DNA from: Erythrobacteraceae bacterium
Lineage (GTDB): Bacteria; Pseudomonadota; Alphaproteobacteria; Sphingomonadales; Sphingomonadaceae
Reading direction: 5' to 3'
Assembly: GCA_027486035.1 (NCBI GenBank)
Contig: JAIXPX010000011.1
Coordinates: forward strand, 44,579-108,578
Length of the DNA stretch: 64,000 nt
Positions 24,858 through 30,985 of the stretch are shown here, in pieces. Numbering within the stretch: the stretch's first letter is position 1; every line of letters starts with the position of its first letter. The translations under genes were made by a program, and so were the position numbers. The notes beneath the pieces were generated by a model that worked only from the letters and a program-made list of their open reading frames with translations, did not search any database and was not told where the DNA came from.

Positions 24858-24940
24858 GTCCATGTGCGTCCAGAGCCCGTCCAGACCCGTCCAGACCCCT
24901 GCTAGACCCGCTCCACACCCCCGCCAGACACCCGCCAGAT
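24858..24940 (-). repeat. Helically phased array of ~GTCTGGANGGG units (array A)
   Basis: CCA/CTA cores on + strand begin at 24860, 24870, 24881, 24891, 24902, 24913, 24924, 24935 (spacing 10-11). Confidence 0.75.
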
Positions 24941-29666: not shown

Positions 29667-30296
29667 TCAGTTGGCGGCCGCGGGGGTTGCGGTGCCGGTG
29701 ATCGCGCTCATGTCGACCTTGGGGTTCGCCTTGGCGCCCTCGTCCGCCTCGAAATATTCGAGCGGCTTGGCGCCGTGGATCACGTTCGCGCCGATGCTCG
29801 AGGGGAAGGTGCGGATCTCGGTGTTATAGTCCCGCGCCAGATCATTGTAGCGCACCCGCTCGGTGTTGATCTGGTTGTTGGCCTCGTCGATCGCCACCAT
29901 CAGATCGCCGAAGCGCGGCTGGCTGGCGAGCTGCGGATAGTTCTCGACCACGGTGCGCAGCTGGCCCAGCGCCTGGGTGAGCTGGTTCTGTGCATCGTTG
30001 AACTTCTTGAACTCTTCGGGGTTCGAGAGGTCATCGGTGGTGATGTTGATCGAGGTCGCCCGGGCGCGCGCATCGATCACGCTCTGGAGGATGTCCTTCT
30101 CGGAGATAGCGGCGGCCTGCACCACGCTGACGAGGTTGGGGATCTTGTCCGAACGGTTCTGGAGCGCGCTCTCGACATTGCCCCATTGCGCCTTGGCGGC
30201 CTCCTGCTTGGTCGGCACCGAGTTGATCCCGCAAGCGGCAAGGCTGAGCGCGGCAATGGCGGCCAAGGCACCGCGCAGCATGGTGGAAAGGCGCAT
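29667..30296 (-). CDS. lemA: LemA family protein
   Basis: ALSLAACGINSVPTKQEAAKAQWGNVESALQNRSDKIPNLVSVVQAAA; FNDAQNQLTQALGQLRTVVENYPQL; YNTEIRTFPSS. Confidence 0.93.
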   Translation of the reverse strand: MRLSTMLRGALAAIAALSLAACGINSVPTKQEAAKAQWGNVESALQNRSDKIPNLVSVVQAAAISEKDILQSVIDARARATSINITTDDLSNPEEFKKFNDAQNQLTQALGQLRTVVENYPQLASQPRFGDLMVAIDEANNQINTERVRYNDLARDYNTEIRTFPSSIGANVIHGAKPLEYFEADEGAKANPKVDMSAITGTATPAAAN

Positions 30297-30318
30297 TGAT
30301 CACTCCCTCGTGAAGCCG

Positions 30319-30337
30319 GCCGGCCTGTCAGGCCGGC
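30319..30337. repeat. Perfect inverted repeat upstream of lemA
   Basis: GCCGGCCTG-T-CAGGCCGGC, 9-bp arms, 1-nt centre. Confidence 0.6.
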
Positions 30338-30425
30338 ACGGCTGGCGTTCTGTATTGCGCATATAGCACACCCCGAACCCCTTTCAAGCGGTGCGGGTGC
30401 CATCGGGCAGGGGCTTGTGCCGCAA

Positions 30426-30441
30426 TGTTTCACGTGAAACA
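30426..30441. promoter_or_regulatory. parS (ParB-binding site)
   Basis: TGTTTCACGTGAAACA, exact 16-bp chromosomal parS palindrome. Confidence 0.88.
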
Positions 30442-30452
30442 CGGATTTACGG

Positions 30453-30525
30453 CAGGTCTGCAAGGCGTCTGGCGGGGGCCTGAACGCATCTGGAGGGGGT
30501 CTGGAAGGGGCCTGGAGCGGCTCTC
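30453..30525 (+). repeat. Helically phased array of ~GTCTGGANGGG units (array B)
   Basis: CTG cores begin at 30458, 30469, 30480, 30490, 30501, 30512 (spacing 11, 11, 10, 11, 11). Confidence 0.75.
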
Positions 30526-30603
30526 GCCCCACCTCGAACGCACGGGGCCTCGCCGCATCGCCATGCCCGTCCACTTCACATTCAGGATGGAGGCGCTATA
30601 TCC

Positions 30604-30985
30604 GCTCTCGCCGGTTTCGGCCGGCTATGGCGATAAACTGCTGCGTGCAATAGGCGCAACGGACCCGGGGGCAGTACCCGGCGGCTCCACCACTTGGGCC
30701 GAGCAACACGATCAGCATGCGTGAAGCGTGCCGACCGGGCGGCTCAGCTGATGGGGCCGAACCAGGATCGACGTGTGTTGAAAAGCGTAGTTTTCGCCCG
30801 GGCTGAGTAACCCGCATAAGGCTCAAAAACCATAAGTGCCAACGACAACGAAGCACTTGCTCTCGCTGCGTAATGTGACGGCCTAGCGGCCTGAATTTAC
30901 AAAGCTACGAGCACGGTTCGGACCGAACCGGGTAACAGAATCGGAAACCGGGCGCCCGGGGGAGCGTAGCAACAGAATCCCCCAC
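30604..30985 (+). ncRNA. ssrA: Permuted two-piece tmRNA (acceptor piece ending ~30692; coding piece from ~30753); outer ends approximate
   Basis: CCCGGGGGCAGTACCCGGCGGCTCCACCA (T-arm/CCA end, 30692) precedes GGGGCCGAACCAGGATCGACGTG (5' piece, 30753); GGGGCCG pairs with CGGCTCC; tag ORF GCC AAC GAC AAC GAA GCA CTT GCT CTC GCT GCG TAA = ANDNEALALAA at 30838-30873. Confidence 0.93.

Follow-up and report, generated by a model that had tools for sequence, protein, structure and literature searches.

A helically phased array near the tmRNA gene forms one half of a parS-containing element dispersed at gene ends in an Erythrobacter/Porphyrobacter clade

Six degenerate repeats, spaced one turn of B-DNA apart, lie between a parS site and the tmRNA gene (ssrA) of an Erythrobacteraceae bacterium. 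The question raised by this locus is what kind of element such an array is, and whether it is connected to either of its neighbors. We analyzed the array in the window, the whole stretch of 64,000 nucleotides that contains it, and in sequence stretches around related sites in other genomes. The original prediction, made from the letters of the window, described six CTG cores at a spacing of about 10.8 bp beginning 12 nt after a perfect parS, took the conserved period to suggest selection on a single face of the helix, as opposed to slippage, and recognized no described element of this form.

Inspection of the sequence bore out this description: there is a perfect parS, TGTTTCACGTGAAACA, at 30426-30441, and the cores are at 30458, 30469, 30480, 30490, 30501 and 30512, that is, at +17, +28, +39, +49, +60 and +71 after parS. 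TRF independently reported an array at 30455-30524. The phased-chain score of the array was 55; for approximately 3000 random stretches of the window, the 99th percentile was 37 and the maximum 45. The features of the locus are as follows.

29667 to 30296, minus strand: left-hand neighbor gene, read as a LemA-type protein, with a weak MamQ-family match.
30426 to 30441, no strand: parS palindrome TGTTTCACGTGAAACA, identical to the centromere-cluster sites beside parA-parB.
30442 to 30454, plus strand: spacer that separates parS from the array, constant in length from locus to locus (first core CTG at +17 or +18) and variable in sequence.
30455 to 30524, plus strand: helically phased array of six units, unit consensus GGGG-T-CT-R-R-M, cores CTG.
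30575 to 30602, plus strand: ssrA promoter-like sequence (TTCACA, 16 bp, TATATC), a neighbor that is not thought to be part of the element.
30571 to 30964, plus strand: ssrA, the tmRNA gene and right-hand neighbor (30597-30964 by ARAGORN; 30571-30949 by Rfam RF01849).
24867 to 24939, minus strand: array A, a second array of the motif without parS, at the recF 3' end in a convergent junction.

A possible ssrA promoter had been proposed downstream of the array; the promoter-like sequence is now placed at about 30575-30602, and it is kept in relatives both with and without the parS-array element. Array A is an orphan: its 11-bp motif overlaps the 3' end of recF, and the nearest parS-like palindrome has 7 mismatches. 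There is also a short array-like run of three units without parS near position 1503 of locus L154 (G000:C52).

A similarity search with the window segment found 24 matches in its own genome, many of them consisting of parS plus array and often starting at parS. We therefore studied the array as a repeated element. The window genome, a 90%-complete draft, has a dispersed set of 61 near-perfect parS sites; 40 are perfect and identical to the sites in the centromere cluster, and a reversed-pattern control gave 0. Among 53 parS sites fetched, 40 had a CTGG array on one side, a set that excludes the centromere cluster and most sites within genes. When these 40 loci were stacked on parS alone, leaving the arrays unaligned, core positions peaked at +17.4, +28.2, +39.0, +49.6, +60.2 and +70.9 bp. 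The adjacency of array and parS thus stands in a refined form: the first core follows parS by 17 bp, a distance that is constant genome-wide. Across 76 elements from four genomes the best period was 10.8 bp, with a mean resultant length of 0.85. The same register was present in other genomes; loci from G221, G223 and G224 were selected for a core at about +17, which leaves only their later cores unbiased, and G180 loci were selected by their arrays. Because GGTCT-N6 is itself part of the array, the reversed-pattern control was unfit as a null for arrays and was replaced by shuffles and random windows, and phased runs were far above the expectation from these. We conclude that array and parS are the two halves of a composite element. 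That parS is part of the element, that the element is dispersed and that its positions are conserved were beyond the reach of a reading of one window.

The units are held together by their phase more than by their letters. Nearly all T in the unit is in the core. Neighboring units show a slight likeness (0.71), and non-adjacent units are no more alike within an array (0.655) than between arrays (0.659), which argues against recent slippage, as had been predicted. The period, 10.7-10.8 bp, and its phase recur in four other genomes, consistent with the proposal that one helix face is under selection. A/T periodicity was strong on the array side only (power 3.5-5.5, compared to about 0.9 in shuffles), with nearly equal phase in five genomes. 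The core-to-core spread grows with distance, somewhat more slowly than it would with independent steps of 10 or 11 bp; this difference is modest, and the growth itself counts against the explanation preferred below. A G-quadruplex was considered and rejected: 43 of the 76 arrays fit a loose pattern, compared to 17% of shuffles, but the G-runs are broken in many units and the phase persists. Also rejected, as secondary, was a conserved hairpin around parS; pairing of the flanks slightly exceeded that of permuted sequences (z 4.4) in array-bearing elements and not in G156 or G158.

The elements are found mainly at gene ends. With the array placed to the right of parS, 72 intergenic elements comprised 37 in convergent gaps, 14 in tandem ++, 14 in tandem --, 6 in divergent gaps and 1 unassigned, using gene calls from a simple codon-usage finder; of the 32 window gaps of 60 bp or more that served for comparison, 6 were convergent. 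In the usual layout parS lies 0-30 bp past a stop codon, and the end of the opposite gene is typically 70-130 bp past parS. In different species, many elements have kept both their place, at orthologous junctions, and their orientation. At least 10 elements of genome G180 are at junctions orthologous to those of window-genome elements, in the same orientation and with coding flanks that are mostly 75-90% identical. In one Erythrobacter/Porphyrobacter clade, then, the chromosomes have dozens of elements at gene ends all the way round.

Few elements occupy a divergent gap, and the window copy is among them. In most relatives the LemA-type gene and ssrA are separated by mscL, which is missing from the window (30297-30425), so the divergent arrangement was probably created by loss of mscL. 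The position between parS and the tmRNA gene is correct as a location; the proximity to ssrA is incidental, and at this junction the element is absent from several relatives and inverted in two. The inverted copies (L055, L059) have the opposite orientation to those in the window, L046, L052 and L057. Junctions of mscL and ssrA without the element (L044, L050, L056, L060, L061) often contain one or two copies of an inverted repeat, CCCCTCCCGC..GCGGGAGGGG.

We determined how widely the element is distributed. Perfect parS sites number 40 in the window genome and 0-4 in all others sampled from 151 genomes of the family. Allowing up to one mismatch, 47 of 114 genomes of the genus have 9-86 parS sites and the other 67 have 0-4, with none in between. 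All genomes whose full-length ParB shares 76% identity or more with that of the window genome belong to the parS-rich group. A parS followed in register by CTGR was found in 27 genomes, with up to 25 per genome, although single matches are within chance. The array thus recurs in relatives. Across the class (250 genomes), three genomes outside the genus exceed 9 parS sites (79, 18 and 13). In the loci read from two of them, G491 and G472, the CTGG array was not found; the G491 loci had short parS clusters, and the G472 loci had single parS sites with an outboard half-site.

These two genomes belong to other families of the class. G491 (L306, L316, L318, L320) has 79 parS-type sites in a 1.8-Mb genome, arranged in small clusters with other parS-like palindromes interspersed, and its expansion was apparently independent. 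G472 (L311, L315, L317, L319) has 18 parS sites, about ten of them outside the centromere cluster; at four of its loci parS is adjoined by GTTCACGAAA, the same outboard half-site as in G156 and G158.

Genomes G156 and G158 retain parS at junctions orthologous to some of the elements, and their phased units are weak or different; this pattern suggests that, of the two parts of the element, parS is older or under more constraint. A GAAC half-site is often found 11 bp outside parS in these genomes. Their loci (L165-L184) have parS at gene ends with AA..TT flanks, and some have a phased unit of approximately GGCAAAGC every 11 bp.

Which protein might read the dispersed sites? The window genome encodes ParA and ParB and has its own parS cluster beside rsmG-parA-parB; parB is at C5:7565-8524, beside the cluster, and its product matches TIGR00180 well above the cut-off. 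The most informative comparison was with G180, which at first looked like an exception within the genus. Its arrays seemed to be without parS, a reading we rejected because their flanks contain a C-type palindrome instead. This palindrome, TGTTCCACGTGGAACA, is present in 52 copies, in the centromere cluster (7 sites beside parB, C1:419815-423146) and at about 45 dispersed sites, and this form is absent from the window genome. Because G180 elements are at junctions orthologous to those of the window genome but have the C-type palindrome, many sites have switched both of their half-sites without moving, in step with the centromere. Homogenization of parS by gene conversion is unlikely, because orthologous arrays are 61% identical and unrelated arrays 59%.

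The ParB of G180 has changed as well. Seven of its ten specific changes at conserved ParB columns are in the DNA-binding domain (p = 0.002), and one, R to K, is at the equivalent of R204, a residue reported to contact parS (PMC7383237). The site sequence thus co-varies with ParB, the centromeric and dispersed sites having switched alongside changes in the DNA-binding domain. This pattern strongly supports ParB as the reader: the dispersed sites follow its specificity, and ParB very probably reads them. The ParB-type residues equivalent to R173 and G201 (SRSH, GHAR) are kept in the ParB of the window genome and its relatives, which indicates that the protein is ParB and not Noc; the Noc-type specificity residues (equivalents of Q173 and R201) were not found in these proteins, which have R and G instead. 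A clade-specific ParB paralogue was rejected as the reader, as longer ParB-like proteins are also present in genomes without dispersed parS.

The array is likely to be read differently. The base after CT in the unit is G in 83-84% of cases in G000 and G221, and A in 58% in G224, which has T-type parS, and 79% in G180, which has C-type parS. The third core base has thus shifted from G to A whichever type of parS is present. An array that keeps its phase and its side of parS while its letters drift points to a DNA-level interaction with one face of the helix, made by something that is not the helix with which ParB reads parS. The same drift makes it improbable that the units are weak ParB half-sites and the whole element one long cooperative ParB platform. 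That proposal draws on the binding of half-parS heptamers across the genome by Pseudomonas aeruginosa ParB (PMC10419367), on the GAAC half-site that G156, G158 and the distant G472 have at 11 bp outward from parS, and on a resemblance that we noted between the unit core TGGA and part of a parS half-site, but the letters of the unit drift independently of parS type and its invariant CT is absent from parS.

We think it probable that the elements are chromosome-wide ParB-loading sites, each joined to an array that is bound or wrapped on one face, and that they form a Noc-like network that uses the centromere protein. The chromosomal partition protein ParB would nucleate on the parS of each element. 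About six degenerate units on one helix face, at a fixed distance to one side of parS, would provide a second surface that gives the element its polarity, formed through cooperative binding or wrapping by another protein. With 40-80 such elements at gene 3' ends, the result would be a chromosome-wide network of ParB loading or anchoring points, as for Noc in Bacillus. The location at 3' ends and in convergent gaps might be explained if ParB spreading would disturb promoters elsewhere. Some observations count against this explanation: array A and L154 are array-like runs without parS, the arrays of some sister species that retain parS are weak or different, and the spacing of sites in G180 is only weakly more even than random among the sites listed (p 0.065).

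Several known systems resemble the element in part. The 16-bp palindrome is the same as in the chromosomal parS of the ParABS systems of Caulobacter, Bacillus, Pseudomonas and Streptomyces, and the genome has ParA-ParB. In the known systems a genome has few parS sites, most of them close to the origin (PMC5815017), whereas this clade has 40-80 copies chromosome-wide, each at the 3' end of a gene and flanked on one side by a phase-locked array. An origin-proximal location was not found in G180, where counts by quartile of distance from parB were 13, 8, 9 and 12 among the sites listed, and because the elements are spread over its chromosome we do not classify them as ordinary centromeric parS. 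Nor is there a clear Noc-like depletion near the terminus in these counts. Extra parS sites away from the origin are harmful in Caulobacter (PMC5815017), so the tolerance of dozens of them in this clade needs an explanation.

The system most similar in layout is that of Noc, a ParB-family protein of Bacillus with binding sites dispersed over the chromosome. Dispersal is shared, but the predicted reader here is the centromere ParB, the sites have the parS sequence rather than the Noc motif, and the protein has residues of the R173/G201 type. The centromere parC of R1-type plasmids consists of 11-bp direct repeats bound by ParR. Like the array, it places direct repeats on one helix face at a spacing of about 11 bp and has a link to DNA partition, but it is plasmid-borne, is without parS and uses different proteins; the likeness is one of layout. 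In P. aeruginosa, ParB is bound at half-parS sites at many places outside the centromere (PMC10419367); those sites are single heptamers, whereas the elements here are complete palindromes at conserved gene junctions plus an array. No publication on parS in Erythrobacter, dispersed parS or convergent placement, and no description of an element of this form, was found in the open-licence literature, in agreement with the statement that no such element was known.

A role in transcription was also considered. The array RNA could act as a Rho-utilization-like site, with ParB on parS as a roadblock, so that the element would be a terminator or collision barrier ending converging transcripts. The array strand is G-rich (46.6% G, 24.2% C) and its complement C-rich, such that a transcript from the gene facing the array would be C-rich with a cytosine every 11 nt; half of the elements are convergent, and parS is 0-30 bp after the stop codon. 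In rut sites the C-rich strand likewise has cytosines about every 11 nt over about 75 nt, and with its period of 10.8 and low G content the C-rich strand of the array fits a published description, a 78-nt stretch with C > G and cytosines every 11-13 nt (PMC6407284). However, only one tandem orientation gives C-rich RNA downstream of a gene, and the two are equally frequent (14 ++ and 14 --); with the inverted copies at the same junction in L055 and L059, the C-rich strand is not consistently the one transcribed as sense RNA beyond a gene end. Nor would an RNA signal be expected to keep a fixed register to a DNA palindrome. Intrinsic terminators are not significantly rarer at convergent junctions with the element (4 of 21) than without it (7 of 21; p 0.48), and at one orthologous junction there is an intrinsic terminator beyond the array. 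We therefore regard this explanation as unlikely, to about the same degree as the half-site platform. The element itself is not an intrinsic terminator, as G+C-rich hairpins followed by a T run were in no excess over shuffles. An exclusion of terminators seen in a first small sample vanished with more junctions.

A Chi or KOPS role, considered because CTGGAGG resembles some Chi sequences, was rejected since there was no replichore orientation bias in G180 (13/12 on one side and 10/7 on the other, among the sites listed). A selfish or neutral REP- or MITE-like repeat, spread by copying and surviving at 3' ends where it is least harmful, would fit the dispersed, intergenic, 3'-biased and lineage-specific distribution and the presence, absence and inversion at the ssrA junction, but is very improbable given that there are no near-identical copies (the best match in the same genome is 76% over 92 bp), that many positions are old and orthologous, that units within arrays have no shared local ancestry, and that the dispersed parS sites switched along with the centromere and ParB while orthologous arrays are hardly more alike than unrelated ones, so that neither copying nor gene conversion explains the switch.

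If the elements are ParB-loading sites, they may also do more. It is conceivable, although we consider it doubtful, that the centromere protein serves as genome-wide architecture, with the elements wrapping DNA at convergent gene ends and acting as polar loading or boundary sites for ParB and condensin, a role comparable to that of cohesin sites at convergent genes. Were this true, the centromere protein of a bacterial clade would have become an architectural system for the whole genome. No description of a DNA feature like the phase-locked array was found, and in the co-change of ParB with dozens of sites a centromere system has left a rare record of how its specificity switched. A clade with 40-80 parS sites, many of them at conserved gene ends and changing together with ParB specificity, offers a natural experiment on ParB and condensin loading outside the origin.
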